From Siphonodentalium dalli (Eukaryota; Mollusca; Scaphopoda; Gadilida; Siphonodentaliidae), in assembly GCA_032622095.1 (NCBI GenBank), contig CP136065.1:68167675-68231674 (forward strand): 64,000 nt of DNA, given 5' to 3'. Under the pieces are notes generated by a model that worked only from the letters and a program-made list of their open reading frames with translations, was not told where the DNA came from and did no database searches. A program made the position numbers and the translations under genes. Of the stretch, positions 1-60,250 are shown piece after piece (position 1 is the stretch's first letter; every line of letters starts with the position of its first letter).

Positions 1-89
1 TAACCGTTTCGCCAGAGTATTGATTGATGAATTCAAATTGTTGAATATATATTCCTCAAAAATAGCGATACTATTATTATTGTCAAGCA

Positions 90-1167
90 ATGATTGGACA
101 TGGCAAGGAGACGTTGCAGCATACCCTCATTGCACACAAGGACATCGAGTTCGTCTTGCTGTGCGGCGTATTGAATGATGATTCCAATACACAGTACATG
201 GCGAAACATTTCGGGATTATTCCAAAAACACTACCATGTGATCTGGCATCCATCCGCTTAATTAAACGAGGATGATTGCGTTTTGACTTTTCCGGAAGAA
301 CCCGAAACCGACATATCTGAACGTCTTCTGAATAAAGTGACGCGAGATGTGAGTTCAAACAAAGAACTGTTTCAAGGAGAATCGGATATTAACATGACAG
401 GATCTGACTCTACTCGTGGTATAGACGAATTGTCACAGTGGTTGCGAGATATAGTAGATTTTTTCACTGAGCATGACCGAATGGAGGAGTGGTAATGTAT
501 CCTGCGAGAGTTAGCAAACAGACGTTTTGCTTTAGATAACATTGGCTTTCAATTAGTCCTCGATGTCCGTAATATATAGACATTCGGTTCTATCTAGCGA
601 TGACATAACAATATGGTCATTAATATTAGGGAATATCATAGGACGTTATACAGAGTTTTTAAATTTGGTCTGTGGATTAACCACATGAAAATACAGGTCA
701 CGTTCGAATTTGAGTGTCGTCACCCCAATTTTTCCGGGGTTATGGACCTTGTCTATTAAAATTTGCCGACTGTTTTTGTTTCCGGGTGATTACATTGCAT
801 TTAGTTATCTGATTGTTTTTAAATTCAACCGAATCTCTTCATATGTGGTACATAGTTCAAATTTCAGAGGACAAAGGCCATGTTTGAAGTTTGTCACGGT
901 CCAATGAATTTTGACAGAATTAAAAAAATCTACGCTCAATATAAGTTACTAAAAATCCTCGGTGTCTCTGACCTTTTATTGTTGTTGTTGCTGATGATGT
1001 TGTTGTTGTTGTTGTTACTGTTGTTGTTTTTGTTGGTGTTGTTGTTGGAATTGTTTCTGCAAAGAGACAAGGCACCTTTATGCGTTTCGCCACAGTATTC
1101 ATTGTTGAATTAACATTGTTGAATATATATTCCTCAGAAATAGCGATGCTATTATTATTGTCAAGCA
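90..1167 (+). repeat. Array monomer 1 (type A)
   Basis: This copy nearly matches monomer 3, one 2.16 kb higher-order unit away. Its open frame breaks near 265 (an extra aattaa before the acidic segment) and again at 494 (TGG TAA in place of TGG CAA). The (TTG)n tract lies at about 976-1050. Confidence 0.9.
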
Positions 1168-2249
1168 ATGATTGGACATGGCAACAAGACGCTGCAGCAT
1201 ACCCTCTTTGCACACAAGGACCTCCAGTTCGTATTGCTGAGCGGCGTATCGAGTGATGATATTCGCAATACACAGTACATGGCGAAGCATTTCGGGTTTA
1301 TTCCAAAAACACTACCATGTGATATGGCATCCATCCGCTTAAACGAGGAAGATTGCGTTTTGACTTTCGACATATCTGAACGTCCTCTGAATAAAGTGAT
1401 GCGAGATGTGAGTTCAAACAAAGAGCTGTTTCAAGGAGAATCGGACATTAACATGACATAATCTGACTCTACTCGTGATATAAACGAATTGTCACAGTTG
1501 TTGCGAGATGATATAGTATATTTTCCCACTGAGCATGACCGACTGGAGGAGTGGCAATGCGTTATGCAAGAGTTAACAACAGACGTTTCCTTTAGATAGC
1601 ATTGCCTTTCGATTATTTCTCGATGCGCGTAACCTACAGACATTCGGTTCTATCTAGCGATGACATAAAACTATGGTCATTAATATTAGGGACCATCGTA
1701 GGACGTTATACAGAGTTTTTTTTAATTTGGTCTGTGGATTAACCACATGGCGATACAAGTCAAGTTCGAATTTGAGTGTCGTCTCTGCCCAATTGTGCCG
1801 GAGCTATGGACCTTGTCTACTTAAAATTTGCCGATTTTGTTGGTTTCCGGGTGATAACTTTACTGTTAGTTATCTGATTGTTTTTAAATTCAACCGAATC
1901 TCTTCTTATGTGGTACGTTATTCAAATTTCAGAAGACAAAGGCCATGTTTGAAGTTGTTCACGGTCCAATGAATTTTGACAGACAGAACTAAACAAAATA
2001 TACGCTCAATATAAGTTACTAAAAATCCACGTGTTCGCTGACCTTTTATTGTTGTTGCTGCTGCCGATGTTGTTGTTGTTACTGTTGTTGTTGTTGTTGG
2101 TGGTGGTGTTGTTGCTGGTGTTGTTGTTGGAATTATTTCTGCAAAGAGACAAGGTACCTTTAACCGTTTCGCCAGAGTATTGATTGATGAATTCACATTG
2201 TTGAATATATATTCCTCAAAAATAGCGATACTATTATTATTGTCAAGCA
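1168..2249 (+). repeat. Array monomer 2 (type B)
   Basis: Type B is marked by the GVSSDDIRNTQYM reading, against GVLNDDSNTQYM in type A, and by lack of the PEEPE segment. The frame stops at ATG ACA TAA near 1453-1461. The (TTG)n tract lies at about 2049-2131. Confidence 0.9.
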
Positions 2250-3325
2250 ATGATTGGACATGGCAAGGAGACGCTGCAGCATACCATCATTGCACACAAG
2301 GACATCGAGATCGTCTTGCTGTGCGGCGTATTGAATGATGATTCCAATACACAGTACATGGCGAAACATTTCGGGATTATTCCAAAAACACTACCATGTG
2401 ATCTGGCATCATCCGCTTAATTAAACGAGGAAGATTGCGTTTTGACTTTTCCGAAGAACCCGAAACCGACATATCTGAACGTCTTCTGAATAAAGTGACG
2501 CGAGATGTGAGTTCAAACAAAGAGCTGTTTCAAGGAGAATCGGATATTAACATGACAGAATCTGACTCTACTCGTGGTATAGACGAATCGTCACAGTGGT
2601 TGCGAGATATAGTAGATTTTTTCACTGAGCATGACCGAATGGAGGAGTGGCAATGTATCCTGCGAGAGTTAGCAAACAGACGTTTTGCTTTAGATAACAT
2701 TGGCTTTCAATTAGTCCTCGATGTCCGTAATATATAGACATTCGGTTCTATCTAGCGATGACATAACAATATGGTCATTAATATTAGGGAATATCATAGG
2801 ACGTTATACAGAGTTTTTAAATTTGGTCTGTGGATTAACCACATGAAAATACAGGTCACGTTCGAATTTGAGTGTCGTCAGCCCAATTTTTCCGGGGTTA
2901 TGGACCTTGTCTATTAAAATTTGGCGACTGTTTTTGTTTCCGGGTGATTACTTTGCATTTAGTTATCTGATTGTTTTTAAATTCAACCGAATCTCTTCAT
3001 ATGTGGTACATAGTTCAAATTTCAGAGGACAAAGGCCATGTTTGAAGTTTGTCACGGTCCAATGAATTTTGACAGAATTAAAAAAATCTACGCTCAATAT
3101 AAGTTACTAAAAATCCTCGGTGTCTCTGACCTTTTATTGTTGTTGTTGCCGCTGATGATGTTGTTGTTGTTGTTACTGTTGTTGTTTTTGTTGGTGTTGT
3201 TGTTGGAATTGTTTCTGCAAAGAGACAAGGCACCTTTATGCGTTTCGCCACAGTATTCATTGTTGAATTAACATTGTTGAATATATATTCCTCAGAAATA
3301 GCGATGCTATTATTATTGTCAAGCA
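2250..3325 (+). repeat. Array monomer 3 (type A)
   Basis: This is the duplicate of monomer 1 at +2160. A one-base loss near 2410 and the extra aattaa near 2421 disturb the frame, but the downstream part stays open to about 2735. The (TTG)n tract lies at about 3136-3207. Confidence 0.9.
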
Positions 3326-4407
3326 ATGATTGGACATGGCAACAAGACGCTGCAGCATACCCTCTTTGCACACAAGGACCTCCAGATCGTATTGCTGAGC
3401 GGCGTATCGAGTGATGATATTCGCAATACACAGTACATGGCGAAGCATTTCGGGTTTATTCCAAAAACACTACCCTGTGATATGGCATCCATCCGCTTAA
3501 ACGAGCAAGATTGCGTTTTGACTTTCGACATATCAGAACGTCCTCTGAATAAAGTGATGCGAGATGTGAGTTCAAACAAAGAGCTGTTTCAAGGAGAATC
3601 GGACATTAACATGAAATAATCTGACTCTACTCGTGATATAGACGAATTGTCACAGTTGTTGCGAGATATAGTAGATTTTCCCACTGAGCATGACCGACTG
3701 GAGGAGTGGCAATGTTTTATGCGAGAGTTAGCAACCAGACGTTTTCCTTTAGATAGCATTGCCTTTCGATTATTTCTCGATGCGCATAAAATACAGACAT
3801 TCGGTTCTATCTAGCGATGACATCAAACTATGGTCATTAATATTAGGGACCATCGTTTGACGCTATGCAGAGTTTTTTAATTTGATCTGTGGATTAACCA
3901 CATGACGATACAGGTCAAATTCGAATTTAAGTGTCGTATGCCCTATTTTGCCGGAGCTATGGACCTTATCTACTTAAAATTTGCCGATTTTTTTGGGTTT
4001 CCGGGTGATAACTTTACTGTTAGTTATCTGATTGTTTTCAAATTCAACCGAATCTCTTCATATGTGGTACGTTGTTCAAATTTCAGAAGACAAAGGCCAT
4101 GTTTCAAGTTGTTCACGGTCCAATGAATTTTGACAGAACTAAACAAAATATACGCTCAATATAAGTTACTAAAAATCTACGTGGTCAATGACCTTTTATT
4201 GTTGTTGTTGCTGCTGATGTTGTTGTTGTTGTTGTTACTGTTGTTGTTGTTGTTGGTGTTGTTGTTGTTGCTGTTGTTGTTGTTGTTGGAATTGTTTCTG
4301 CAAAGGGACAAGGCACCATTAACCGTTTCACCAGAGTATTGATAGTTGAATTCACATTGTTGAATATATATTCCTCAAAAATGCGATACTATTATTATGG
4401 TCAAGCA
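3326..4407 (+). repeat. Array monomer 4 (type B, shared anchor of both higher-order units)
   Basis: It repeats monomer 2 at +2158 and is itself repeated as monomer 7 at +3197, so it belongs to both higher-order phases. The frame ends at ATG AAA TAA near 3611-3619. The (TTG)n tract (about 4198-4291) is one of the longest. Confidence 0.9.
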
Positions 4408-4983
4408 ATTATTGGACATGGCAAGGAGAGGCTGCAGCATATCCTCATTGCACACAAGGACATCGAGTTCGTCTTGCTGTGCGGCGTATCGAGTGATGAT
4501 TCCAATACACAGTACATGGCGAAACATATCGGGATTATTCCAAAAATGCTACTTTGTGATCTGGCATCCATCCACTTAAACGAGGAAGATTGCGTTTTGA
4601 CTTTCGACATATCTGAACGTCATCTGAATAAAGTGATGCGAGATGTGCGTTCAAACAAAGAGCTGTTTCAAGGAGAATCGGACATTAACATGACACAATC
4701 TGACTCTACTCGTGATATAGACGAATTGTCACAGTTGTTGCGAGATATAGTAGATTTTCCCACTGAGCATGACCGACTGGAGGAGTGGCAATGTTTTATG
4801 AGAGAGTTAGTAACCAGACGTTTTCCTTTAGATAGCATTTCTTTCGATTATTTCTCGATGCGCATAAAATACAGACATTCGGTTCTATCTAGCGATGACA
4901 TAAAACTATGGTCATTAATATTAGGGACCATCGTAGGACGCTATACAGAGTTTTTAAATCTGGTCTGTGGATTAACCACATGA
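4381..4983 (+). CDS. Open frame in monomer 5, 200 codons, unknown protein
   Basis: The frame runs from ATG 4381 to a stop at 4981-4983. It reads through the monomer core, IIGHGKERLQH then FVLLCGVSSDD, MAKHIGIIPK, the acidic GESDINMTQSD and the helix-like DELSQLLRDIVDFPTEHDRLEEW. A one-base difference near 4840 shifts it into a second frame (SSDDIKLWSLILGTIVGRYTEF) that other copies read only after a stop. No signal peptide or membrane segment is evident. The block DRLEEWQCFMRELATRRFPL reminds me of a recurrent block in uncharacterised invertebrate proteins, but I cannot verify this. It may be a real exon, a decayed duplicate or chance. Confidence 0.25.
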   Translation: MRYYYYGQAIIGHGKERLQHILIAHKDIEFVLLCGVSSDDSNTQYMAKHIGIIPKMLLCDLASIHLNEEDCVLTFDISERHLNKVMRDVRSNKELFQGESDINMTQSDSTRDIDELSQLLRDIVDFPTEHDRLEEWQCFMRELVTRRFPLDSISFDYFSMRIKYRHSVLSSDDIKLWSLILGTIVGRYTEFLNLVCGLTT

Positions 4984-5476
4984 CGATACAGGTCAAGTTC
5001 GAATTTGAGTGTCGTACGCCCAATTGTGCCGGAGCTATGGACCTTGTCTACTTAAAATTTGCCGATTGTTTTGGTTTCCGGGTGATAACTTTAATGTTTG
5101 TTATCTGATTGTTTTTTAATTCAACCGAATCTCTTCATATGTGGTACGTTGTTCAAATGTCAGAAGACAAATGCCATGTTTGAAGTTGTTCACGGTCCAA
5201 TGAATTTTGACAGAACTAAACAAAATATACGCTCAATATAAGTTACTAAAAATCTACGTGGTCGCTGACCTTTTATTGTTGTTGTTGTTGCTGTTGTTGT
5301 TGTTGTTACAGTTGTTGTTGTTGGTGGTGTTGTTGCTGGTGTTGTTGCTGTTGTTGGAATTGTTTCTGCAAAGAGACAAGGCACCTTTAACCGTTTCGCC
5401 AGAGTATTGATTGTTGAATTCACATTGTTGAATATATATTCCTAAAAAATGGCGATACTATTATTATTGTCAGGCA
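4408..5476 (+). repeat. Array monomer 5 (type C)
   Basis: This copy starts ATTATTGGACATGG, so the usual ATG is lost, but the frame is open from ATG 4381. It is repeated as monomer 8. The (TTG)n tract lies at about 5277-5359. Confidence 0.9.
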
Positions 5477-6522
5477 ATGATTTGACATGGCAATGAGACG
5501 TTGCAGCATACCCTCATTGCACAAAGGGACATCGAGATCGTCTTGCTGTGCGGTGTATTGAGTGATGATTCCAATACACAGTACATGGCGAAACATTTCG
5601 GGATTATTCCAAAAACACTACCCTGTGATCTGGCATCCATCCGCTTAAACGAGGAAAATTGCGTTTTGACTGTTCCGGAAGAACCCGAAACCGACATATC
5701 TGAACGTCTTCTGAATAAAGTGACGCGAGATGTGAGTTCAAACAAAGAGCTGCTTCAAGGAGAATCGGATATTAACATGACAGAATCTGACTCTACTCGT
5801 GGTATAGACGAATTGTCACAGGTGTTGCGAGATACATTAGATTTGTTCACTGAGCATGACCGAATGGAGGAGTGGCAATGTATCCTGCGAGAGTTAGCAC
5901 ACAGACGTTTTGCTTTAGATAACATTGGCTTTCAATTAGTCATCGATGTCCGTAATATATAGACATTCGGTTCTATCTAGCGATGACATAGCAATATGGT
6001 CATTAATATTAGGGAATATCATAGGACGTTATACAGAGTTTTTAAATTTGGTCTGTGGATTAATCACATGAAGATACAGGTCACGTTCGAATTTGAGTGT
6101 CCTCAGCCCAATTTTGCCGGGGTTATGGACCTTGTCTATTAAAATTTGCCGATTATCTGAGTGTTTTTAAATTCAACCTAATCTCTTCATACATGTATAT
6201 GGTACATAGTTCAAATTTCAGAGGAAAAAGGCCATGTTTGAAGTTTGTCACGGTCCAAGAATTTTGACAGAATTAAAACAATCTACGCTCAATATAAGTT
6301 ACTAAAATCCACGTGGTCTCTGACCTTTTATTGTTGTTGTTGCTGCTGATGTTGTTGTTGTTACTGTTGTTGGTGGTGTTGTTGCTGTTGTTGTTGTTGT
6401 TGGAATTGTTTCTGCAAAGAGACAAGGCACCTTTATGTGTTTCGCCACAGTATTCATTGCTGAATTAACATTGTTGAATATATATTCCTCAGAAATAGCG
6501 ATGCTATTATTATTGTCAAGCA
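5477..6522 (+). repeat. Array monomer 6 (type A variant)
   Basis: It carries the PEEPETD segment and is repeated as monomer 9. The spacer is shortened near 6145-6160, where text present in the other copies is missing. The frame is open at 5501-5962. The (TTG)n tract lies at about 6329-6402. Confidence 0.9.
5501..5962 (+). CDS. Open frame in monomer 6, unknown protein
   Basis: This is the same type A frame as at 8675-9160. The usual initiating segment is broken because GGCAAGGAGACG reads GGCAATGAGACG with an in-frame stop, so the open stretch begins downstream with a non-ATG codon. From MAKHFGIIPKTLPCDLASIR to the TAG at about 5960 it matches monomer 9 closely. It is listed as a further, partly broken copy. 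Confidence 0.2.
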   Translation: MQHTLIAQRDIEIVLLCGVLSDDSNTQYMAKHFGIIPKTLPCDLASIRLNEENCVLTVPEEPETDISERLLNKVTRDVSSNKELLQGESDINMTESDSTRGIDELSQVLRDTLDLFTEHDRMEEWQCILRELAHRRFALDNIGFQLVIDVRNI

Positions 6523-7604
6523 ATGATTGGACATGGCAACAAGACGCTGCAGCATACCCTCTTTGCACACAAGGACCTCCAGATCGTATTGCTGAGCGGC
6601 GTATCGAGTGATGATATTCGCAATACACAGTACATGGCGAAGCATTTCGGGTTTATTCCAAAAAACACTACCCTGTGATATGGCATCCATCCGCTTAAAC
6701 GAGGAAGATTGCGTTTTGACTTTCGACATATCTGAACGTCCTCTGAATAAAGTGATGCGAGATGTGAGTTCAAACAAAGAGCTGTTTCAAGGAGAATCGG
6801 ACATTAACATGAAATAATCTGACTCTACTCGTGATATAGACGAATTGTCACAGTTGTTGCGAGATATAGTAGATTTTCCCACTGAGCATGACCGACTGGA
6901 GGAGTGGCAATGTTTTATGCGAGAGTTAGCAACCAGACGTTTTCCTTTAGATAGCATTGCCTTTCGATTATTTCTCGATGCGCGTAAAATACAGACATTC
7001 GGTTCTATCTAGCGATGACATCAAACTATGGTCATTAATATTAGGGACCATCGTATGACGTTATGCAGAGTTTTTTAATTTGGTCTGTGGATTAACCACA
7101 TGACGATACAGGTCAAATTCGAATTTAAGTGTCGTACGCCCTATTTTGCCGGAGCTATGGACCTTATCTACTTAAAATTTGCCGATTTTTTTGGTTTCCG
7201 GGTGATAACTTTACTGTTAGTTATCTGATTGTTTTCAAATTCAACCGAATCTCTTCATATGTGGTACGTTGTTCAAATTTCAGAAGACAAAGGCCATGTT
7301 TCAAGTTGTTCACGGTCCAATGAATTTTGACAGAACTAAACAAAATATACGCTCAATATAAGTTACTAAAAATCTACGTGGTCAATGACCTTTTATTGTT
7401 GTTGTTGCTGCTGCTGATGTTGTTGTTGTTGTTGTTGTTACTGTTTTTGTTGTTGTTGTTGTTGTTGCTGTTGTTGTTGTTGTTGGAATTGTTTCTGCAA
7501 AGAGACAAGGCACCATTAACCGTTTCACCAGAGTATTGATAGTTGAATTCACATTGTTGAATATATATTCCTCAAAAATGCGATACTATTATTATTGTCA
7601 AGCA
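6523..7604 (+). repeat. Array monomer 7 (type B)
   Basis: This is the +3197 duplicate of monomer 4. A one-base insertion in an A run near 6660-6665 shifts the frame. The (TTG)n tract lies at about 7396-7484. Confidence 0.9.
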
Positions 7605-8090
7605 ATGATTGGACATGGCAAGGAGACGCTGCAGCATACCATCATTGCACACAAGGACATCGAGATCGTCGTGCTGTGCGGCGTATCGAGTGATGATTCC
7701 AATACACAGTACATGGCGAAACATTTCGGGATTATTCTAAAAACACTACTCTGTGATCTGGCATCCATCCGCTTAAACGAGGAAGATTGCGTTTTTACTT
7801 TCGACATATCTGAACGTCATCTGAATAAAGTGGTGCGAGATGTGCGTTCAAACAAAGAGCTGTTTCAAGGAGAATCGGACATTAACATGACACAATCTGA
7901 CTCTACTCGTGATATAGACGAATTGTCACAGTTGTTGCGAGATATAGTAGATTTTCCCACTGAGCATGACCGACTGGAGGAGTGGCAATGTTTTATGAGA
8001 GAGTTAGCAACCAGACGTTTTCCTTTAGATAGCATTGCCTTTCGATTATTTCTCGATGCGCATAAAATACAGACATTCGGTTCTATCTAG
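7578..8090 (+). CDS. Open frame in monomer 8, 170 codons, unknown protein
   Basis: ATG 7578 opens at MRYYYYCQAMIGHGKE and the frame stays open through the monomer core to a TAG at 8088-8090. The order of segments is a hydrophobic stretch (IEIVVLCGV), MAKHFGIILKTLL, LNEEDCVFTFD, a charged middle with RSNKELFQGESD, and a C-terminal helical part ending FRLFLDAHKIQTFGSI. The family is not recognised. The same reading frame recurs in monomer 9 and, with breaks, in the others. No promoter, splice sites or polyadenylation signal can be assigned. Confidence 0.3.
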   Translation: MRYYYYCQAMIGHGKETLQHTIIAHKDIEIVVLCGVSSDDSNTQYMAKHFGIILKTLLCDLASIRLNEEDCVFTFDISERHLNKVVRDVRSNKELFQGESDINMTQSDSTRDIDELSQLLRDIVDFPTEHDRLEEWQCFMRELATRRFPLDSIAFRLFLDAHKIQTFGSI

Positions 8091-8674
8091 CGATGACATA
8101 AAACTATGGTCATTAATATTAGGGACCATCGTAGGACGCTATACAGAGTTTTTAAATCTGGTCTGTGGATTAACCACATGACGATACAGGTCAAGTTCGA
8201 ATTTGAGTGTCGTACGCCCAATTTTGCCGGAGCTATGGACCTTGTCTACTTAAAATTTGCCGATCGTTTTGGTTTCCGGGTGATAACTTTACTGTTTGTT
8301 ATCTGATTGTGTTTTAATTCAACCGAATCTCTTCATATGTGGTACGTTGTTCAAATGTCAGAAGACAAATGCCATGTTGGAAGTTGTTCACGGTCCAATG
8401 AATTTTGACAGAACTAAACAAAATATACGCTCAATATAAGTTACTAAAAATCTACGTGGTCGCTGACCTTTTATTGTTGTTGTCGTTGCTGTTGTTGTTG
8501 TTGTTACAGTTGTTGTTGTTGGTGGTGTTGTTGCTGGTGTTGTTGCTGTTGTTGGAATTGTTTCTACAAAGAGACAAGGCACCTTTAACCGTTTCGCCAG
8601 AGTATTGATTGTTGAATTCACATTGTTGAATATATATTCCTCAAAAATGGCGATACTATTATTATTGTCAGGCA
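7605..8674 (+). repeat. Array monomer 8 (type C)
   Basis: This is the +3197 duplicate of monomer 5, and its full-length open frame is described separately. The (TTG)n tract lies at about 8475-8557. Confidence 0.9.
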
Positions 8675-9160
8675 ATGATTGGACATGGCAAGGAGACTTT
8701 GCAGCATACCCTCATTGCACAAAGGGACATCGAGATCGTCTTGCTGTGCGGCGTATTGAGTGATGATTCCAATACACAGTACATGGCGAAACATTTCGGG
8801 ATTATTCCAAAAACACTACCTTCTGATCTGGCATCCATCCGCTTAAACGAGGAAAATTGCGTTTTGACTGTTCCGGAAGAACCCGAAACCGACATATCTG
8901 AACGTCTTCTGAATAAAGTGACGCGAGATGTGAGTTCAAACAAAGAGCTGCTTCAAGGAGAATCGGATATTAACATGACAGAATCTGACTCTACTCGTGG
9001 TATAGACGAATTGTCACAGGTGTTGCGAGATACATTAGATTTTTTCACTGAGCATGACCGACTGGAGGAGTGGCAATGTATCCTGCGAGAGTTAGCAACC
9101 AGACGTTTTGCTTTAGATAACATTGGCTTTCAATTAGTCATCGATGTCCGTAAAATATAG
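8675..9160 (+). CDS. Open frame in monomer 9, 161 codons, unknown protein
   Basis: ATG 8675 to TAG 9158-9160 is the cleanest copy of the type A frame. Segments are MIGHGKETLQHTLIAQRD, a hydrophobic IEIVLLCGVL, MAKHFGIIPKTL, then an acidic TVPEEPETDISE absent from types B and C, and the C-terminal DRLEEWQCILRELATRRFAL. The 12-codon difference between types A and C keeps the frame, as expected for coding descent. The protein family is unknown. It could be one exon of a tandemly duplicated gene whose other exons are lost. Confidence 0.3.
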   Translation: MIGHGKETLQHTLIAQRDIEIVLLCGVLSDDSNTQYMAKHFGIIPKTLPSDLASIRLNEENCVLTVPEEPETDISERLLNKVTRDVSSNKELLQGESDINMTESDSTRGIDELSQVLRDTLDFFTEHDRLEEWQCILRELATRRFALDNIGFQLVIDVRKI

Positions 9161-9716
9161 ACATTCGGTTCTATCTAGCGATGACATAACAATATGGTGA
9201 TTAATATTAGGGACCATCATAGGACGCTATACAGAGTTTTTAAATTTGGTCTGTGGATTAACCACATGAAGATCCATGTCAGGTTCGAATTTGAGTGTCG
9301 TCCGCCCAATTTTGCCGGAGTTATGGACCTTGTCTATTAAAATTTGCCGATTGTTTTGGTTTCCGGGTGATAACTTTACATTTACTTATCTGATTGTTTT
9401 TAAATTCAACCGAATCTCTTCATATGTGGTACATAGGATAAAGGCCATGTTTGAAGTTTGTCACGGTCCAATGAATTTTGACATAATTAAAAAATTCTAC
9501 GCTCAATATAAGTTACTAAAAATCCACGTGGTCGCTGACCTTTTATTGTTGTTGCTGTTGTTGTTGCTGGTGGTCTTGCTGTTGTTGTTGTTGTTGGAAT
9601 TGCTTCTGCAATGAGACAAGGCACCTTTAAGCGTTTCGCCACATTATTGATTGTTGAATTCACATTGTTGAATATATATTCCTCAAACATGGCGATGCTA
9701 TTATTATTGTCAAGCA
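8675..9716 (+). repeat. Array monomer 9 (type A variant)
   Basis: This is the +3198 duplicate of monomer 6, with an intact 161-codon frame. About 20 bases of spacer are missing near 9435. The (TTG)n tract is the shortest (about 9546-9597). Confidence 0.9.
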
Positions 9717-10023
9717 ATGATTGGACGTGGCAACAAGAAGCTGCAGCATACCCTCATTGCTCACAAGGACCTCGAGATCGTCCTGCGGTGCGGCGTATCG
9801 AGTGATGCTATTCGCAATAGTATATGGCGAAGCATATCGGGATTATTCCAAAAGCACTACCCTGTGATCTGGCATCCATTCGCTTAAACGAGGATGATTG
9901 CGTTTTGACTTTTCCGGAAGAAACCGAAACCGACATATCTGATCGTCCTCTGAATGAAGTGACGCGATATGTGAGTTCACACAAAGAGCTGTTTCAATGA
10001 GCATCGGATATTAACATGATATA

Positions 10024-12606
10024 CACTGCTAGAAAAAATACCGTCGTTTTAACAGTCTGAAACCGCGCAACATCGCTTCCAACGTTTGACCGTTAAACAT
10101 ACGGTCAGACCATAGCATGTTCCACGATATAAAACCGTTTAAGTAACTGGCAGACCGTAACCAATTTAATTAATATCAAGACCGTAACTAATAAAGGTCA
10201 GAACAATGGTATTTTTCATGGGTCAACACCAATTTTTTGCTCTTAATTTGCTAATTTACCATAGAATTAGCCAGGTTCCCATGGTGACAATATGATTTCC
10301 CGGTAGTCATAACGATTCATGTTTTTGAATGGTCGAAAATAGTATTATTCGTAACTGAAAAATGCGTCTTAGTTCTTATGTTACGATCATGGTTTTGATG
10401 AAATGTAAATCCTCTATGCATAAAGTGATAGACAATTCTTATGAAACTTTGCAGTTTGCAGAGGATCAAGCTTGTTATCTGCCTCGTAGAATTCAATCAG
10501 GAAAAGGCTGCGCACGCGTAATGTGTTCGCCTTTCACTAACTACTGTATAAATATGGCTGTAAATTAAAAAACGATACTAGTAATAGCTGATAATATTCA
10601 GTTATGAGTAATGCTAATTTCGACCATTCTAAAACATGAATCGGCATGCCCCTTTAAGCCATAAAAAGAACAAATCTACATGTTTCACAGTTAAAACTCA
10701 AATTTATGTACATGTAAAAGTTAAATATCTTAATGGCATACATTTTGGTAACATGAAAGGCTTGAAATTGTCCAGTCACTTGTAAACACAGTTTTTATTT
10801 TAACAGGTGAATCCGTACATCATGACAATACAGTACCAGTCAGAAGAAGTGGTATTTTAGGCGCACCTTTATTGCGATATTGAGCGTGCTTAATTTAGAA
10901 AAAGGCGTGATTATAGCACACTACCAAAAATCTGTCGCGCTTATTATTGCAATATTGAACGCAAAATATTGCGATACTAAGCGCGCTAAATTTCATACAG
11001 ACCCGATAGTGTTATATTTATATTAGATAACTACTGTGCATATAGTGTACATATAGCAATTAACAACTATAATTATATACATATCTAAAACATTATCTCT
11101 TTTTATACAACAAACAATATAGAAGAAGCAATAATTTGATTTAAATGTCGCAATTTTGAACGCAAGATGTCGCAATATTAAGCGCAAAATATTGAGATAT
11201 TAAGCGCAAAATATTGCAATAATATCACAAGCGACATGCTTATAAGCGTTTCCACTTGCAATATTATTGCGATATGGGGCGCGAAAATAGCGCGCTTAAT
11301 ATACCACTTCTTTTGACTGGTATTGTATATCAATAACAATTAGTTGGGATTGGAACCTTCAAGACAACAGCAGATCACATAATAACTGTGCGCAATGACT
11401 TGGCGACAATGTTCTCCTGTAGTCGCACATTTTCCATGAAATTTTTAAGCATGATGCATCAAACTGTATACTGGTATCACAGCCACTTAGTATCAATATC
11501 AGTGAGTCAGCCAAAGATAGTTTGATAAGAACATCCAACCAATGGTGTACTCCGATAAATTGTCGTAATAACTTGACGATACCATGGCGAATGATGACAA
11601 TGTCTCATATCCACACGTTTCAATGAAAATTGATGAACACAGGATGAATTGGTCCGTGTAATTGTAAAGTTGGAATTGTAGATATGTGATCATCCGTCAC
11701 TGCGTGACGTCAGTTCATTGTTTACGGTGTTGTTGTTGACACCGAAGCTCTTGTGAATTACACGGTGCATGCAGTACATGTACATGTATATCATCTCTTG
11801 TAAACGTACATGCATTTGCTTTGAAACAATCAGATACAGAACACTGTCAACTGGATTGTCAACATTCTAATCATAATGGCTGCTCGTTGAGTCGTTGTTG
11901 TTATTATTTTCACTATTGGTTGACATCGAAGCTTGTGTTAATTGTACTTGTATCCTCACTTTGTGTCAGTAAATGTGCCAGTGTTTTGATACTAAGTCAC
12001 AACACTGTCAATTTCAACATCATTATTGAGTCGAATGAAGTCAGACCCCCGATCGTGCCATGAATCTCTGCTCTCTAATTTAGTGGAAATTGTCAATGAT
12101 TAAGCCGATTTTCGCAGCATTGAAACTTCTCCGGTTATCAAAGGAACCGAAATCAGTCCGTCTCAATAACTGTCCGCAATGGAAAAGGTAACAGTTTCCC
12201 AAAAAACAATAATTTGCGATTAAATATGCAACGCCAAATAAAAATGGCGATAAAATGATCTTAGTGCTAAAGCGGTAACTTAACCCCGGAATGATAATTA
12301 CGTACTCTTCAATATACGTACCGGGCCGATTAACACAGAATGAATGCCGATATTGTATACATATTAAATATCAGCAGAGTAAGATTCAGTCATACTGTAT
12401 GGAGTCATCGCCGTATATAATATGGCCGCCGATAAATATACTATTGAATTTTGACGCCATGACTTTGAATCACGAAAATATTTAATTTAGACAATTTTCA
12501 TGGGCAGATAAAATAACGTTAATACACTGTCAAACTGATGAAACGGTATGGGACCGTAGATTATGACGGCCCGAAACTGTCGAATCGACAGTAATTTATA
12601 ACAGTG
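10024..12606 (+). mobile_element. Family A nonautonomous DNA transposon, copy 1
   Basis: The element starts CACTGCTAGAAAAAA and ends ...ATTTATAACAGTG, so the ends are inverted (CACTGYTA). It is flanked by TA at 10022-10023 and TA at 12607-12608. Removing it and one TA restores the array monomer (ATGA(C/T)ATAATCTGACTC in other copies). A second copy lies inverted at 52003-54087, and its flanks fit a 2-bp CA duplication. No transposase frame is conserved between the copies. A 2-bp duplication suggests a mariner-like or ISL2EU-like family. The assignment is open. Confidence 0.85.
10831..11325. mobile_element. Mariner-like MITE nested in family A copy 1
   Basis: Terminal inverted repeats of about 34 bp read CARTACCAGTCARAAGAAG and continue to GTGGTATWTTARGCGC. 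They are flanked by TA (10829-10830 and 11326-11327). The interior repeats GCGCAAAATATTGCGATA-like blocks. The inverted copy of family A near 53250-53275 lacks it and reads straight across the site, giving an empty site. No coding capacity. Confidence 0.85.
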
Positions 12607-12748
12607 TAATCTGACTCTACTCGTGATATAGACGAATTGTCACAGTTGTTGCGAGATATATTAGATTTTCTCACTGAGCATGACTGACTGGAGTAGTGGC
12701 AATGTTTCATGCGAGTATTAGCAACCAGACGCTTTCCTTTAGATAAAG

Positions 12749-14739
12749 TTCAAACGACACATTGCCGACTGCAATTTAGGCGGTGTTATCTTCGTGCGAA
12801 ATTCTTGTTTCGAATTTTGTTTTCAAGTCAAGCGACAAACATCTGAGGACCGCTACTGGTCAATATCAGGTATAGAAAATTCGGAACAAGAGCACAAAAT
12901 ACCTATAGCAATACATCGCAGCGATTGAAACAAAATCATACAATCGTTATTTGAATATATCTGATTGAAAGCGGCTGTGCTGTTATATCTCGCTGATATA
13001 AGCATTTGCAGTATTGCCGGGAGTCTGCCTTAACATACTGAGATTACCGGGAACCATTTACAAATAGTACTGCTGTGCGTCTATCGCTGGGAACATTGTC
13101 GATTTTGTTCCTTTTAGTGGAGAACGTTAACACAGGTGGGGGGTATTGTTTGGACCCAATCTCCAAGTTTAAAGCCGACAGAGTGGAAATTGTCGACATG
13201 GCCAGCTATTGCGTTCATCGTGCAAGTGTATATATACACATTAATATATCGCAGCGAGAACGGCCTGTCAGGAAGTGTCTATTGTACAAAAATACCGACG
13301 GTAAATCCAACCTGATCAGCTGCCTGCATGATGCTTGTTTCTTTCTGGTGGCTGATCACTGTATTATTTAACAGGCGTCGGTATATTTTAATGCACATTT
13401 GTGGACATCAGAAAAACGTATGTCACTGTTTAGAGAAACGCACATTTCCTTAAAATGTTACAAAATGGTATCAATTGATAATCTGCAGAGTGGTTATAGA
13501 CATGGACATCCATATAAAAACGTGTGTGGAAATTGAAAAAATCCGAGTTTATTGGCAGCAATATAATACTGATTAAATGGGACAGCATGTCACCGTTATT
13601 GTTGTATGTGTGCTTAGAACATTTCCTTGACGCCATCCATTGTCTGTAGCAGGCGTCTGTCTTGATTAAAAGACGCAATGGGCACATGTCATCATGTGTA
13701 ATTGGCCCAAGCGTCGGACAACTTGGTGTGACAATTGAATATCACGGATATCCAACCGTTAGATATTACACATATCCAAGTGTTTAAACTCTTAAGTCGG
13801 AAACAATGGTTCGCTTCAAGTCGCCGCGACAAATACGGTGGGGATTGGGAGGGGTCTCACACAAAAACACAGCAATATATCAAATTAGAAAATATATTAA
13901 TATCCATTAGAATACCCTGACACAGAATATTCAGATGAGTTTTCTCCTATTCACATGTCGACGTACCATGGATCTTTGGTTGCATGGCTTTGTCAATGCA
14001 CGAAGATGATCACATTCCTCTGTCTTAGGCCGCATATAATCGTTTTTGATAAGTGAATTTTACACCAGCAAGTACAGTTAAATAGTTTACGGTGTGTGTC
14101 TTGCTTCAGTTTATCGTTGGAAACAGAGATCAAATTGTGTGTATTTTATGAACTTCCAGTCGGTCGCTCATTTATTCTCGACCCAATTTCCCCATTTCCG
14201 TTTAAAGACCAGATGAAATCCAGTCACAACTATGATTTGGGTATTTTTACTATTTGGTGTTTTTAGTAGAGTTTATTCATAAAACTAGTGTAATAACCAA
14301 CTAATTTATGCGGATTGTCGTAATTATAAGCAATGCATCTGTCGGCGTATAGAATCTTATATTTAACCTGGTGAAAATAAGTTCATAGTTATATATTTAC
14401 ATGCACCTAATTTCGCTTTCGATTTCCCCATAACGTTACGGTAGACACGCCCCCTTATTCAACGCGTTCATAAAGCTATGAACGTAACGTGACGTCACTT
14501 TCAATGTCGTTCATAGGCCTATGAACACATTGGTCCCGGAAATCACCGGAGATTGTCGGACATTACCGACTGCTTGAGTATCTAGTCAGCCAATACGCCA
14601 AGGATTTGATAGCGAACAATATGTAATCAAGGTTCACGATTGGATGGCTAGTGGCATCTAATCGCGAGCACGGGTGGCACGATATGTTCGATTGACTATC
14701 AGAATGTTGGTAATCATATAATCACATATCCCATAATAT
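12749..14739. other. Single-copy-looking stretch with one possible exon
   Basis: I see no repeat family here. The frame at 13042-13371 is open on the plus strand and follows a pyrimidine-rich TTGTTCCTTTTAG that could act as a splice acceptor at 13116. The reading VENVNTGGGYCLDPISKFKA is cysteine-bearing, but no family is recognised. Around 14440-14530 there is a short AACGTTACG and ATGAACG-rich imperfect inverted structure. Nothing else is supported. Confidence 0.3.
13117..13371 (+). CDS. Possible internal or terminal exon, unknown protein
   Basis: This is about 84 open codons after a plausible acceptor (TTGTTCCTTTTAG) and ending at a TAA at 13369-13371. The reading has six cysteines (GGGYCLDP, SYCVHR, RKCLLY, ISCLHDACFF, ADHC), as in a small extracellular disulfide module. 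No matching family is recognised and no partner exon is visible. It may equally be chance open sequence. Confidence 0.18.
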   Translation: MENVNTGGGYCLDPISKFKADRVEIVDMASYCVHRASVYIHINISQRERPVRKCLLYKNTDGKSNLISCLHDACFFLVADHCII

Positions 14740-19547: not shown

Positions 19548-21345
19548 AAACTCGGACGTCAGTTTAGTCTCTTTCTTTGTGCGTTAGATTAGACGACCCA
19601 TAAATCATAAACAAACATTTTCTAGAACTGGAAGCGGAATTACGAAAACAATTGGTTGGGGGTGGCGAATTACTTTATTCTTAAAACGTAAATGTCAGAC
19701 GAGTTTACATGAAGTGAATAACTTTATTCTGAAAACTTGCATGTCAGATGAGTTTATTGTTTTTATGCATTATATTAGACGATCCTTCAATCATAAACAA
19801 TCATTTTCTGGAAGTGGAATTCCGAAAAAAAATCTGCGATCTGAATTGGTTGGGATGGGAGGGGTGGCGAATAACTTTATTCTTAAAACGTGGATGTCAG
19901 ATGAGTTTCTTGCTTTGTGCATTATGTTAGGCGTTTATGATTGAAGGACTGTCTAATCTAATGCATAAAGTAACAAGATCATCTGACATCCAAGTTTTAA
20001 GAATAAAGTTATTCGCCACACCATCCCCAACCCCACCCACCAACCAATTCAAATCGCACATTTGTGTTCGCAATTCCAGTTCAATCAAATGTTTGTTTAT
20101 GATTGAAGGATCATCTAATCCAATGTACACAATAAGAAACTCATCTGACATCCTAGTATTAAGAATAATGTTATTCGCCACCCCCCCCCCCCCCCCCCCC
20201 CCACACCCATCAACCACCAACCAATACAGAATTTCATATCGCAGATTTGGGTTCGCAATTCGACTTCCAGTTCTATAAAATGATTTGTTTGTGAATGAAT
20301 GATCGTCTATTCTAATGCACAAATTAAGAAGCTCATCTGAAATCCAAGTTTTAAGAATAAAGTTTTTCACCACAATCCCGCAGAAGTTTGTTCGCAATTC
20401 CAGTTATATAAAATGATTGTTTATGATTGAAGGATCGTCGAATCTAATACAAAAAGTAAGAAATTTATCTACGTCGGAGTTTAAAGACTACTGTTATTCG
20501 CCACCCCCCCAGTTTTACGAATAATGTTATTCGCCACCCCCACCCACCAGCCAATACAGAATTTCATATCGCAGATATTTAATCGCAATTCGAATTCCAG
20601 TTCTATAAAATGATTGTTTATGCATGAAGGATCGTCTAATATAATGCACAAAGTAAGAAGCTCATCTGACATTCAAGTTTTAAGAATAAAGTTATTCGCC
20701 ACCCCCCTCCCCCACCCACCAAACAATTCAGATCGCAGATGTTTGTTCGCAATTCCACTTCCAGTTCTATAAATTGATTGTTTATGATTGAAGAGTCGTC
20801 TAATCTAATGTACAAAGTAAGAAACTCTTCTGACATCCAAGTATTAAGAATAAAGTTATTCGCCACCCCTCCCCCACCCACCAACCAATACATAATTTCA
20901 TATCGCAGATGTTAAATCCCAATTCGACTTCCAGTTCTATAAAATGATTGTTTATGAATGAAGGATCGTCTAATCTAATGTACAAAGTAAGAAACTCTTC
21001 TGACATCCAAGTATTAAGAATAAAGTTATTCGCCACCCCCTCCCCACCCACCAACCAATACAGAATTTCATATTGCAGATTTTTATTCGCAATTCGACTT
21101 CCAGTTCTATAAAATGATTGTTTATGAATGAATGATCGTCTAATCTAATGCACAAAGTAAGAAGCTTTTGTGACATCCTAGTTTTAAGAATAAAGTTACC
21201 CCCCCCCCCCCCCCCCCCCCCCCACCCACCAACCTATTCCGATCGCAGAATTAGGTTCGCAATTCCACTTCCAGTTTTATAAAATTATTGCTTATGATGG
21301 AAGGATCGTCTAATCTAATACACAAAGTAAGAAACTTATCTACGT
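19503..21345. repeat. ~165 bp minisatellite that switches strand near 19940
   Basis: Units contain GTGGCGAATAACTTTATT, a TCAGATGAGTTT block, AATCATAAACAATCATTTT and a G-rich linker. Plus-orientation units start near 19527, 19663 and 19865. From about 19940 the same unit appears as its complement, with GTTATTCGCCAC at 20008, 20170, 20495, 20526, 20691, 20855 and 21025, spaced about 160-170 apart in the clean part. G or C runs of 24, 22 and 25 bases lie at 19503, 20181 and 21199. Glycine-rich translated frames here come only from the repeat. Confidence 0.9.
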
Positions 21346-25076: not shown

Positions 25077-25361
25077 TCAAGGGAAATAACTAAATTGAGA
25101 GAGAACGTCATTTCCTGTGTACATTAAGTTTACACTTGAAATGTTTCCGTAAAAGTCTTCTCTTTGCTGCCTGAGTATTTTGCTGTCGGACTGTAGTTTT
25201 TGAAACGGGAAAATCGAAAAGTTCCTACCCCCGCATTCATCCAAATGCTCACTGAGCGGAATTTTTCGATATTCTGGTTGCTTAATTTGCTGCTTGTGAA
25301 TTCTCGTTCTTTCTCGCAGTGTATTGCACGTTTCTCCGATGTAACTTTCTGAACATCCATG
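25077..25361 (-). pseudogene. Penelope-like element, GIY-YIG endonuclease part
   Basis: The minus-strand frame reads SESYIGETCNTLRERTRIHK and then LSEHLDECGGRNFS. These are the YIGE motif, the catalytic-arginine helix and the downstream His/Glu region of the GIY-YIG nuclease of Penelope-like retroelements. It ends at a TGA at 25077-25079 after LSQFSYFP, a normal C-terminal position. The GIY half of the domain lies across the hAT insertion at 27285-27320. This segment has no internal stop, so it is young relative to the RT part. Confidence 0.9.
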
Positions 25362-25511
25362 CAGGGATGTTGCTAGAGGGTCTCCGTTGTGGGGGGGGGT
25401 GTCCACCTTGGGAAATTCCAACTGCACTCCCCCCTTGAGTCGGAATCACACCAACACAACTTTTTGCATAATTCCATTTGCACCCCCCCTTGAATCAGAA
25501 TCACGGCACGG

Positions 25512-27276: not shown

Positions 27277-27650
27277 CATCCATGGCAGACGATACAATAG
27301 ATTAAGTTTCTTGTCCCACAGTCCATAGAAACTTTCTGATAAATTTTCATACCATTTTTTAATTTGAGGTTTTCGACTGTATGGATATATTTGCATGTCC
27401 TACATCGTTTGTCACCACATTTATTCACTAAGTTTAATTTCCCACCAGTTGTGAATCTTGCTTTTGTCAGTATCTTTTTCAAGTTTTTTGCCTGATTTCA
27501 TTGCGGCATTCATTGTTTCACTTTTCTGTAGGATGGGAAATAGTTGTTTTGCAACTGTGGCTATATTAGGATTATGTGGGTTATGTGTGGAAACTAATGG
27601 AGTTGGATCCGATATTGGATTTGGTGACATTTCTGCGCGTAGATCCGCGA
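27277..27650 (-). pseudogene. Penelope-like element, linker between RT and nuclease
   Basis: On the minus strand, 27640-27480 reads LVSTHNPHNPNIATVAKQL, the conserved block downstream of the RT. After one frameshift near 27480, ILTKARF leads to KCGDKRCRTCKYI, the C-x4-C-x2-C zinc-binding linker, and to RNLIYCIVCHG, the first half of the GIY-YIG fold. The hAT element interrupts within the HGC codons. The upstream edge is cut by the LINE insertion at about 27650. Confidence 0.88.
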
Positions 27651-27659
27651 TGGGAATGG

Positions 27660-28886
27660 TCCTTGCGCGTTCCCATTCCTAAAATAAATAACTCTAAGGA
27701 AATAACAAACTATCGTCCAATTAGTATTCTACCATCTTTCTCTAAACTGCTTGAAAAAATAATGCAAAAACGACTAGTAGATTTTCTAAATGAACACGAA
27801 ATCTTAAATAAACACCAATATGGATTTAGACCAAATTACTCAACATTTCATTCGATAATGCACCTTCTAGATCATCTCGTTAAAAATAACGATACACCGA
27901 CACGGGATTCCACCTTAGCCGTATTTATCGATTTATCAAAAGCATTCTATACGATCGACCACAACATATTAATATCGAAACTTGACCACTATGGCATCAG
28001 GGGAATAGCGATGTCATGGTTCCATAGTTATCTGAATGATAGGAGGCAATATGTTGAATATAGTGGGAGTACCTCTAGCCTAATGAATACATCCTGTGGG
28101 GTCCCCCAAGGCTCAATTTTAGGGCCGATAATTGTTTTAATATACGTGAACGACATGGTAAATTCCACAACAATGGACATTTTATCGTATGCCGACGACA
28201 CCACACTGTTCACAAGCGGTAAAGATGGTGAACTAGTACACAGTTATGCCAACAATGAATTAGCCAATGTATCCGATTGGTGCTGCTGTAACAAACTTTC
28301 AATAAATATTAATAAAAGCAATTATATGCTTTTACACCCACAAAACAATGACAAAAAATGGAATACTTCGAAATTAAAGCTGAATAACATTGAACTAAAC
28401 CGAATAGGGAATCTTGGGCGTGAATCCTCGACAAAATTTTTAGGCATACACATTGATGAGAACTTGACATTCAATAAGCACATATCAGTAATCTGCTCGA
28501 AAATATCACATGCAATCTACTGCATGAATAAGTTGAAACATGTTTTCCCAAGTAAAGCATTGAAAACATTGTACTATGCACTGATTCAAAGTCACTTAGT
28601 TTATGGTATCCAAATATGGGGTCATGTACCGGAAGTCAAGAGAATATTCCTATTACAAAAACGAGCATTGCGTATAATATGCAATAAGAAGTACAGGAGT
28701 CACACAGATCCACTCTTTAAAAAAGAGAATATCTTGAAAATACATGACTTACACACTCTAAATTCCTCAATGTTCATGCATGACTGGTGTTATAACCGCC
28801 TAGCCCGCGTCTTTTGGAACCATGTACAACAAACGAGCAAAATCAACCCCAAGACACCCGAATCCCGTAATGTTAGAACTCCCTAG
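27660..28886 (+). pseudogene. LINE reverse transcriptase, C-terminal half, YADD intact
   Basis: The single open frame reads VPIPKINNSKEITNYRPISI, FRPNYSTFHS, then motif A FIDLSKAFYTID (usual KAFDT has Tyr in place of Asp at one position, but the catalytic FID is present). CGVPQGSILGP is motif B and SYADDTTLF is motif C. FLGIHIDENLTFNKHI starts the thumb, followed by HLVYGIQIWG, LQKRALRIICNKKYRSHTD and PLFKKENILKIHDL. This order fits CR1/Rex1/Jockey-type LINEs, and the exact clade is not settled. It lacks the N-terminal endonuclease and starts without its own ATG, so it cannot be a complete enzyme. Confidence 0.92.
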
Positions 28887-29862: not shown

Positions 29863-30540
29863 AGTTTTTTCGGATAGTGTTGTCTTTCTAGAAACATCTT
29901 CAGTTCAGAACATCTATGGTCACGTTGTTTGTCTTGACTGATGATTGTGCACACCCTCTTGCCAGACAATATGGGATGTTACGCTTAGTGTTCGATGGGT
30001 GGCACGAACGGAAATCCAGATATTGGTGGGTGTCTGTTAGTTTGTAGAATATATCCGTTTGTAATTTATTTTTGTCAGCCAAAACAAGCACATCCATAAA
30101 TGGTAATTTTTCACGCTCCATTCTGATGTAAATTTGATTGACGGATGAAGTGATTTCAGAAGTGAAAGGAACTGATTGAGGGTCTCTGTTGAATCTCCCC
30201 AAATAATGAAACAATCATCCAGATACCTTTTCCATGTACACATAATATGTTCACTGATGTTGGTCTGGAATGATCTTTTACTTTCATATAAAGTTGATGT
30301 TCGAGAAACCCCATTACTAAATTTGCGTAGGTTGGGGCCAATTTTGTACCCATAGCCGTACCTTTAATTTGAAGAAAATATATCTCGTCGAAGAAGAAGT
30401 TATTGTTTTCTAAAACTATGTCAACTGCATTCAGAATGAAATCCTCACTGAAGAGATCATTCAATATATCATTATGTTCCTTCGTCCAAAATTTAATTGC
30501 CTCCTTTCCAGGTGGTGAACAATAAAAGATTTCAAAAATC
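29863..30540 (-). pseudogene. Penelope-like element, reverse transcriptase part
   Basis: The minus-strand reading starts near 30540 with GKEAIKFWTKEHNDI, then LFSEDFILNAVDIVLENNNF and IKGTAMGTKLAPTYANLVMG, the signature block of Penelope-like RTs. After a frameshift near 30240 comes KRYLDDCFIIW with the YLDD catalytic motif. Next comes LPFMDVLVLADKNKLQTDI with TDTHQYLDFRSCHPSN, and after another shift SELKMFLERQHYPKKLIQ. The N-terminal part of the element is missing upstream of 30540. The frameshifts make this part non-functional. Confidence 0.92.
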
Positions 30541-30544
30541 GATA

Positions 30545-31100
30545 TATGATAACTCTGCGCGGTTGATGGGTGCAGTTATGTTAACCCTTGACCCCAGAGA
30601 AACACTAATTTAGGACCGAAATGAAAATTGGGAAAATATGTTTCTACTTCTAATAAAAAGGAACGATATTGAAAACTGTCACTTCCCTAGCCTGGTGACA
30701 TACAGTCAATGGCGTCCGTATGGAGTTTACAGTCTATATATATAGACACAACCAGTACATATCAGTTGCTTGGAGTACTCAAAATTCTTTTATTTTTTTC
30801 ACCATCAGTTTTATTAAAACCACCTGCCTCTGAGTTACAAGACGAAATGTGGGAAAAGGTCAAAAATGGTAAGACCTCCAGGTCAAGGGTAAATGCTGAA
30901 AAGACAAAATAGTCTTGTCGATAAAAGTTTTGACCTAGAAAATATTTGGACAAAGTTGTTTTTATTCCATTTTGAAGAGGATTAATAATCATATCCTCTA
31001 TCACATATCCAAAATCTGATAAATCCGCTTAGAGCAACATTTTCTACTCAAAATGGCATCCATGATGACAATTGGTATTGAAAAATGCTGACTTTAGTTC
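30545..31100. other. Stretch without supported features
   Basis: Sequence between the Penelope-like remnant and the giant palindrome. Two short opposite open frames over 30709-31004 have no recognised motif. Confidence 0.4.
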
Positions 31101-45057: not shown

Positions 45058-46086
45058 AGATTTTAGTTATTACATGATCCAAAACCTCGACAAAACATAC
45101 TTAAATCAACAAATGGGATGCGAAACTAACATCGGCTTATATGAGGCATGTGACGACGTTTCAAGTAACTATACGTTGTTTGTCCGCGTAAAGAAAAAGT
45201 CCCAGATAAATAATGACACTTTGGATTATTTAATGGCGTATATTTAATGACATAACTTTTCAACTCTTCATTCCTTATAGTTCGTCGGAAAGTATATTGG
45301 AAGCCATATATAATTTTTTAGCGTACGAAATGTAAAGAGACGACACACCGGAAGTCAATGGTCACATGGCAGTATTTCCTGTTATTAAATGAACGTTCAA
45401 TTTATAGAATGAGTTTTTGAATGAAATCAGGGTAGGATCATGCATGCAATAAATATATAGTATCCATCCCAGTTTGTTTTCGAGAACTGTATCACTATCG
45501 TGTAGTATCCAAATAAAGCGATACATACTTGTTGTTATATCTGACCACTCGTTTGCAATAACCTTGATCAATAGGAGATAGTTCAAGCATCTAATATGTA
45601 TGACACATGGTGTTCTATCGTATACCATGCAGCTGGGTTTGCACATTTTCATGCCTAATATCAGTTTTGCAGAACTTCAAATTTAGCCTCTCAATTGTTT
45701 TCAGGGTTTCGTCGCTTATATCCCACTTTCGTATAGGAGATTGGTCCACCAAAAAGGCACACACTTATAACAACCTAAACCACCCTGGATTATGAACCAC
45801 ATCCCGATATAAGTGAAATATAAGATTAAGATAACAAATATGTTACGATGTTAGAAACTGTCATGGTAATGCTAAACAGATATAATAGAACGGAACGTGC
45901 CAAATGCAAACCTGCATAAATGTATTTCAAACTCTGAAACCGGATAACCGCGGCTATGATACATAAGTGATGATGTGTCATTTGTCCATGCTGGTGAGGG
46001 GTTGATAATCAACGGCTTGTATATTGGCGGGGGAGGGCAGCATAGTGATTATAAGATGGGCGGGATGGATAATTTGTTTGTATTAC
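45058..46086. other. Possible intron of the 46.1-46.4 kb gene
   Basis: If the exon at 46087-46381 is real this is its downstream intron. A frame at 45654-45362 (minus) follows an AG at 45655-45656 in the matching splice phase and reads KMCKPSCMVYDRTPC. The acceptor lacks a pyrimidine tract, so I do not call it. Confidence 0.25.
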
Positions 46087-46381
46087 CTTTGAAAACCATG
46101 GCGCTCGATTGTGAGCCGCTGAAGCTAGTCGTGCTCATGTAACACAGCCCGTTTCCTCCATTGAATGAAAACGCTTGACAGTCTTGTGTTCTTGTGCATA
46201 TGGCGGCACAAGTAAGTCTCGAGCGACTCGCTGTTTGAGACATGGTTGAAGAAATGGCGTTGGTCTGTATGGTAACGAAATGTTTTTCGATAATTGCAAA
46301 TGTGAACGAACAGCAAACTAATATATAGCAACTCAAAAACAACACAGTGGCGTTATGCAAGTTATTTATCCGGTCAGCCAT
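46087..46381 (-). CDS. First exon of a secreted or membrane PAN/apple-like protein
   Basis: The minus strand opens at ATG 46381 (an upstream in-frame ATG at 46411 is possible). Residues 1-29 have a hydrophobic core (TVLFLSCYILVCCSFTFA) like a signal peptide or signal anchor. Residues about 55-85 read SRLTCAAICTRTQDCQAFSF and GLCYMS, the spacing of cysteines in PAN/apple-like modules of invertebrate secreted lectin-type proteins. The frame reaches MVFK and meets AAAG|GTAATA at 46087/46086, a good splice donor in phase 1. Later exons are not identified. Function beyond extracellular recognition cannot be stated. No repeat overlaps it. Confidence 0.6.
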
Positions 46382-46411
46382 AATGCTATTTGGAATTTGA
46401 ATGATCCTCAA

Positions 46412-59609: not shown

Positions 59610-60250
59610 ACTAGCAGGTGGACCCGACTTCGTCCGGGCTGTTTCCCCTCTGATTTGCGGCGAAATGCGCGATTTGACCTTGAATTGTGCATTTTGAAGG
59701 TCAAGGTGAGGTGGGGTCACGATTTGACCCGTCCAAAACACTGCCCGGACAAAAGTACCCGACAAAAGTACCCGTCGAAATCCATCCGGTTTTACCCGAT
59801 TTGACCTCGAATTGATCATTTCGAAGGTCAAGGTCAGGTCGGGGTCACGACTCGACCCGTCCAAAACACTCAGTGGACAAAAGTAACCCCACGTATCAAA
59901 TTTCGTCGAAATCCATTACAAATTTGCGATTTGACATTGAATTGATCCGATTTCAATGTCAAGGTCACGTCGCACGGGCAAACGATTAGGCTTACGACAC
60001 TCCCCTTATGAAAGTATCCCCAGACAGCAATTTTCATCGAAATCCCGTGATACTCAGGCGTTCGACCTTGAAATTACCCGATTTCAAGGTCAAGGTCACG
60101 TCGCACGGGCAAATTAGCAGGCCCATGCCACTCCACGGCCGAAAGTACCCCCACATACCAAGTTTCATCGAAATCGGTTCGGTCGTGTTCGAGTCCATCG
60201 CGAACACAGACAGACAGACAGACAGACAGATCTTCCAAAATATATAATAG
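59610..60250 (+). mobile_element. Family D-related repeat, copy 3
   Basis: It inserts after a (TA)n run and begins ACTAGCAGGTGGACCCGACT, then TCGTCCGGGC. Four internal units contain GATTTGACCTTGAATT and an AAGGTCAAGGTSA block. The tail is GAACACAGACAGACAGACAG then TTCCAAAATATATAATAG. Confidence 0.8.

Follow-up and report, generated by a model that had tools for sequence, protein, structure and literature searches.

The first part of a 64,000-nucleotide stretch of the Siphonodentalium dalli genome (the window, to which all positions refer) holds a local tandem array with a unit of about 1.07 kb, which carries a putatively decayed coding piece in its first half and a TTG tract towards its 3' end, and which has probably grown by unequal homologous exchange. 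The growth of the array has left a readable fossil record, in that nine copies suffice to map a hybrid monomer type and two candidate duplication joints to within about 10-100 alignment columns.

Layout of the array and its monomer types

Self-comparison and monomer alignment bore out the kilobase tandem array of the earlier note on this DNA and showed that positions 1-9625 are filled by nine head-to-tail monomers of 1042-1083 bp in a single orientation (starts at 1, 1077, 2159, 3235, 4318, 5386, 6432, 7515 and 8584). Monomers were delimited by cutting at a common motif, which gave nine full copies and a partial tenth, and a TTG tract lies near the end of every one of the nine. Comparison of positions 1-13500 with the window returned one direct-repeat array, from 1 to about 10020, with periods of about 1078 and its multiples; besides the array, the matches listed (>150 bp, E <=1e-10) comprised only relatives, at about 52-54 kb, of the element inserted in monomer 10. 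The array is cut by the window's left edge, and its right end lies at about 12745, in the 3' piece of monomer 10. The features are as follows:

1..1076 (+): monomer 1, type A; left array end outside the window; 98.6% identity to monomer 3
1077..2158 (+): monomer 2, type B; like monomers 4/7 over its first ~400 columns, then a third B-like lineage
2159..3234 (+): monomer 3, type A
3235..4317 (+): monomer 4, type B, in both repeat phases; identity 98.3% with monomer 7 and 95.1% with monomer 2
4318..5385 (+): monomer 5, type C, hybrid of A (5') and B (3')
5386..6431 (+): monomer 6, type A; closest to monomer 9 in its 5' part and closer to monomers 1/3 in its 3' part
6432..7514 (+): monomer 7, type B
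7515..8583 (+): monomer 8, type C, hybrid; 97.8% identity with monomer 5
8584..9625 (+): monomer 9, type A; 96.1% to monomer 6
9626..10023 (+): monomer 10, 5' piece; 88.2-90.1% identity to each other monomer
10024..12606 (no strand assigned): inserted mobile element with CACTG...CAGTG ends and TA target duplication
12609..12745 (+): monomer 10, 3' piece; 129/137 identities to monomers 4 and 7

The identity matrix returned the order of types A B A B C A B C A given in the earlier note, together with its offsets of about 2158 and 3197 (within-offset pairs 95.1-98.6% identical). Copies 1-2 repeat as 3-4 at an offset of 2158 (98.6% and 95.1% identity) and copies 4-6 repeat as 7-9 at 3197-3198 (98.3, 97.8 and 96.1%), with co-linear similarity extending for at least about 1.5 kb at the first offset and about 2.7 kb at the second. 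The closest pairs are 1/3 (98.6%), 4/7 (98.3%), 5/8 (97.8%), 6/9 (96.1%), 2/7 (95.5%) and 2/4 (95.1%), and copy 4, as had been claimed, takes part in both phases through monomers 7 and 2; the A copies 1/3 share 94.1-95.5% with 6/9. The monomers are not equally diverged, the outcome named earlier as contrary to a higher-order reading: same-type nearest pairs, one period apart, are 95.1-98.6% identical, as against 89.1-93.4% for neighbouring monomers across types (A-B 89.1-90.4%, A-C 90.2-91.3%, B-C 92.4-93.4%). When the nine monomers were shuffled, 238 of 200,000 random orders fitted a scheme of one two-monomer and one three-monomer duplication equally well, by a statistic picked after the pattern had been seen. 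Because each higher-order unit occurs just twice within the window, beyond whose left edge the array passes, the arrangement is better described as two segmental duplications than as a long-running higher-order period; of the two overlapping higher-order periods proposed earlier, the order and the offsets stand.

Monomer 10 amounts to about half a monomer (9626-10023 and 12609-12745), into which a mobile element of 2.58 kb has inserted. It is roughly equidistant from the nine others (88.2-90.1% identity). Of the interval 1-12748 given in the earlier note, whose tenth copy is indeed diverged, 10024-12606 does not belong to the array. A diverged edge copy is expected under Smith's unequal-crossover model, and copy 10 fits. 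The insert starts with CACTG and ends with CAGTG, is flanked by TA at 10022-10023 and 12607-12608, and has a longest listed frame of 107 codons. CACTA-like DNA transposons carry CACTR inverted ends and a target duplication of 2-3 bp, and by its ends and target duplication the insert is a putative CACTA-like element. At 52003-54087 the window has a diverged relative of the insert, with like ends, CA on both sides and four aligned pieces of 67-80% identity.

Elsewhere in the window, a tandem array with a 170-bp unit (4.7 copies) occupies 20537-21336, and two adjoining minisatellites (unit lengths 131 and 122 bp) lie at 59866-60612. A 438-codon frame at 27570-28883 (+) belongs to a retroelement, since a 436-codon part of it matches Pfam RVT_1 (E 1.7e-36). 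Two minus-strand frames, one at 25080-25445 with a weak GIY-YIG match below the cut-off (E 0.00099) and one at 30159-30575 with no Pfam match, which we presume to resemble reverse transcriptase, are together perhaps Penelope-like pieces. A further frame, at 46052-46453 (-), contains a PAN_1 domain (E 3.5e-06). The RVT_1 and PAN_1 frames, with the shortness of the frames, fit a eukaryotic source, and the sequence has a rather bivalve-like look. Searches of the window with Rfam (gathering threshold) and for tRNAs gave no matches.

Hybrid monomers and likely duplication joints

Judged from its site pattern, type C is an A/B hybrid and no independent type, which adds to what the earlier note had seen. 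Forty-six diagnostic sites were used, at which the A copies are uniform, the B copies are uniform, A differs from B and the two C copies carry the state of one or the other. In columns 5-249 C sides with A at 18 of 19 such sites, and in columns 347-956 with B at 26 of 27; none of 100,000 shuffles was as extreme as this clustering. The C-A distance is 4.1-9.0% in columns 1-250, where C-B is 10.6-13.9%, and 8.8-10.8% in columns 348-1005, where C-B is 4.2-5.2%. Only the A-B distance stays constant across both segments (9.5-12.2%), which marks C as the recombinant and excludes B or A from that role. In a tree built from columns 1-300, C does not cluster with A and is instead joined to the long B branch via a branch of 0.003 with support 0.722, so the 5' link between C and A rests on the distances and the site clustering. 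At both of its occurrences (monomers 4-5-6 and 7-8-9) C has a B monomer before it and an A monomer after it, a position that favours crossing over out of register within an A-B array above conversion in place.

Copies 2 and 6 switch their nearest relative internally, at what are likely the joints of two later duplications. Monomers 2 and 4 differ at 5 of 381 sites in columns 1-404 and at 32 of 581 beyond; monomers 4 and 7 differ at 5 of 583 in columns 404-1005, and all 11 sites exclusive to that pair lie at column 404 or later. Monomer 6 differs from monomer 9 at 11 of 558 sites and then at 21 of 368, and from monomer 3 at 24 of 556 and then at 14 of 382, with the switch near column 569 in both comparisons; the sites exclusive to monomers 6 and 9 all lie at or before column 568 (10/10). 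Segment trees place monomer 6 with monomer 9 in columns 1-568 (support 0.995) and with monomers 1/3 in columns 600-1004 (support 0.936). The joints are not located in the TTG tract of the monomers. Of the seven sites that monomers 1 and 3 alone share, five (columns 701, 746, 985, 988 and 989) lie beyond the joint of monomer 6, which suggests, if held loosely, that the trimer duplication preceded the dimer duplication.

Some observations fit less well. If the trimer was duplicated in a single clean event, monomers 3 and 6 should match past the joint as closely as 4 and 7 do, whereas the former differ at 14 of 382 sites (3.7%) and the latter at 5 of 583 (0.9%). Monomers 5 and 8 differ unevenly, with 15 of their 22 differences in columns 1-1000 falling in columns 1-400. 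The excess in 3/6 and the unevenness in 5/8 point to extra conversion, uneven mutation or more events. Also, at column 490, which by the proposed joint should still follow monomer 9, monomer 6 groups with monomers 1/3.

The open frame within the unit

Open frames of 221, 158, 191 and 176 codons are present in monomers 5, 6, 8 and 9, and two of them are listed here:

7515..8087 (+): frame of a type C monomer (monomer 8), 191 codons stop to stop, a putative decayed gene piece
8630..9157 (+): frame of a type A monomer (monomer 9), 176 codons

With the TTG tract excluded from the test, the frame length was reached by 0 of 2000 Markov sequences for monomer 5, 9 of 2000 for monomer 6, 1 of 2000 for monomer 8 and 6 of 2000 for monomer 9. 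As the frames are longer than chance, a coding origin is likely, and we infer that the frame is a decayed gene piece. The ratio pN/pS is 0.53-1.41 in 21 of the 22 pairs examined and 2.58 in monomers 5/8, where changes are few (14.5 non-synonymous and 1.5 synonymous). Variable columns number 38, 30 and 22 at codon positions 1, 2 and 3, and make up 17.9% of columns inside the frame as against 18.4% behind it. A stop codon in the frame is common to monomers 2, 4 and 7, a 4-bp insertion is carried by monomers 1 and 3, and the indels of the frame region are of 18 and 3 bp and also of 4 and 1 bp. The pN/pS values of 0.5-1.4 in 21 of 22 pairs, taken with the codon-position counts, do not indicate purifying selection, of which no sign was found in the 22 pairs by pN/pS, in codon-position variability or in the stops and frameshifts.

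Searches with the frame gave nothing above the cut-off in Pfam (two frames of the unit), NCBIfam or PDB sequences. In the collections viral_contigs and genome_contigs, 2 and 42 stretches respectively fitted the pattern and none was confirmed; the collections searched hold few or no animal sequences, so the frame may still have relatives. Matches to PDZ_3 (E 0.12, below the cut-off) and to a PDB entry (E 1.1, weak) were taken as chance, and a structure model of the frame was uninformative (mean pLDDT 34.4).

Proposed growth of the array and comparison with known systems

Growth by unequal exchange would have begun with a tandem pair that diverged by about 11% into types A and B, after which the A-B dimer would have been repeated. 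An A x B crossover one monomer out of register, within columns 249-347, could then have inserted the hybrid C and formed B-C-A. A three-monomer segment would have been duplicated at an offset of 3197 (joint in monomer 6, around columns 569-642), and subsequently a two-monomer segment at an offset of 2158 (joint in monomer 2, around columns 393-404; other end left of the window). The CACTG-ended element that split the older edge copy 10 would represent the final step. The sequence shows the array, its types, the mosaic make-up of C and the insertion; the mechanism of exchange, the relative order of the two later duplications and the descent of the unit from a gene are inferred. The proposal of successive unequal exchanges made in the earlier note is supported by the hybrid C with B to its left and A to its right, and by the internal switches of relative in copies 2 and 6.

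Gene conversion between fixed neighbours, with no net gain of monomers, is an unlikely source of the type pattern. The uneven divergence along pairs 5/8 and 3/6 suggests that some conversion took place, as do a few homoplasious sites such as column 128, common to monomers 3 and 8; however, conversion in place within an A-B array gives B-C-B or A-C-A, and B-C-A is observed twice, and the similarity is co-linear over the 1.5 kb or more (offset 2158) and 2.7 kb (offset 3197) given above. That allelic or misjoined copies were placed end to end by the assembly is very improbable, since even the closest pairs differ by 1.4-3.9%, with indels of their own, and the hybrid C is present twice with an identical switch.

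The long frames of monomers 5, 6, 8 and 9 (158-221 codons), which exceed nearly all Markov sequences, and the 14.5 non-synonymous against 1.5 synonymous changes between monomers 5 and 8 are what a tandem family of working genes would offer, with the unit as a small gene and the array diversifying under selection. This is nevertheless quite improbable, given pN/pS near 1 in most other pairs, the stop shared by monomers 2, 4 and 7, the 4-bp insertion in 1 and 3, the lack of an above-cut-off match in Pfam, NCBIfam or PDB and of a confirmed relative in viral_contigs or genome_contigs, and the uninformative structure model (pLDDT 34). We would likewise give very little credence to the idea that the array is a gene cluster, expressed and recently expanded, whose out-of-register crossovers within the coding part yield hybrid proteins, for example that of type C; if true, the hybrid C would be a gene-diversifying product and not debris.

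Growth by unequal exchange, the preferred reading, has close precedents. In Smith's model, out-of-register crossover on unselected DNA gives rise to periodicity (as described in PMC8122249). The hybrid monomers of the present array fit this account, which is a model and not a sequence family. Among sequence families, the human non-centromeric MaLR 'LTR arrays' form a megasatellite with a 3.5-kb unit and a 6-monomer higher-order repeat (PMC2588610). The two systems have in common kilobase monomers, a higher-order order of types, an inserted mobile element and unequal crossing-over whose history can be ordered from sequence (PMC2588610). The MaLR arrays are described there as many, on several chromosomes and with LTR-retrotransposon units, whereas here one array is seen in the window and its higher-order units occur twice. 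The earlier note had overstated how unusual a unit of about 1 kb with an open frame is, given that non-centromeric higher-order arrays with a 3.5-kb unit are published (PMC2588610) and that the frame bears no sign of selection.

The higher-order repeats of alpha-satellite share with the present array diverged monomers in a fixed order, and copies one period apart that are closer than neighbours. In contrast, alpha-satellite has 171-bp monomers, lies at centromeres and forms arrays of up to megabase size (PMC2588610), while the unit here is about 1.07 kb and the array covers about 10 kb within the window. The array may serve as a teaching or test case for unequal-exchange models and leaves the understanding of array formation unchanged. 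Its novelty is modest, and beside these systems it is a small, ordinary example of kilobase higher-order arrays of the kind grown by unequal exchange.
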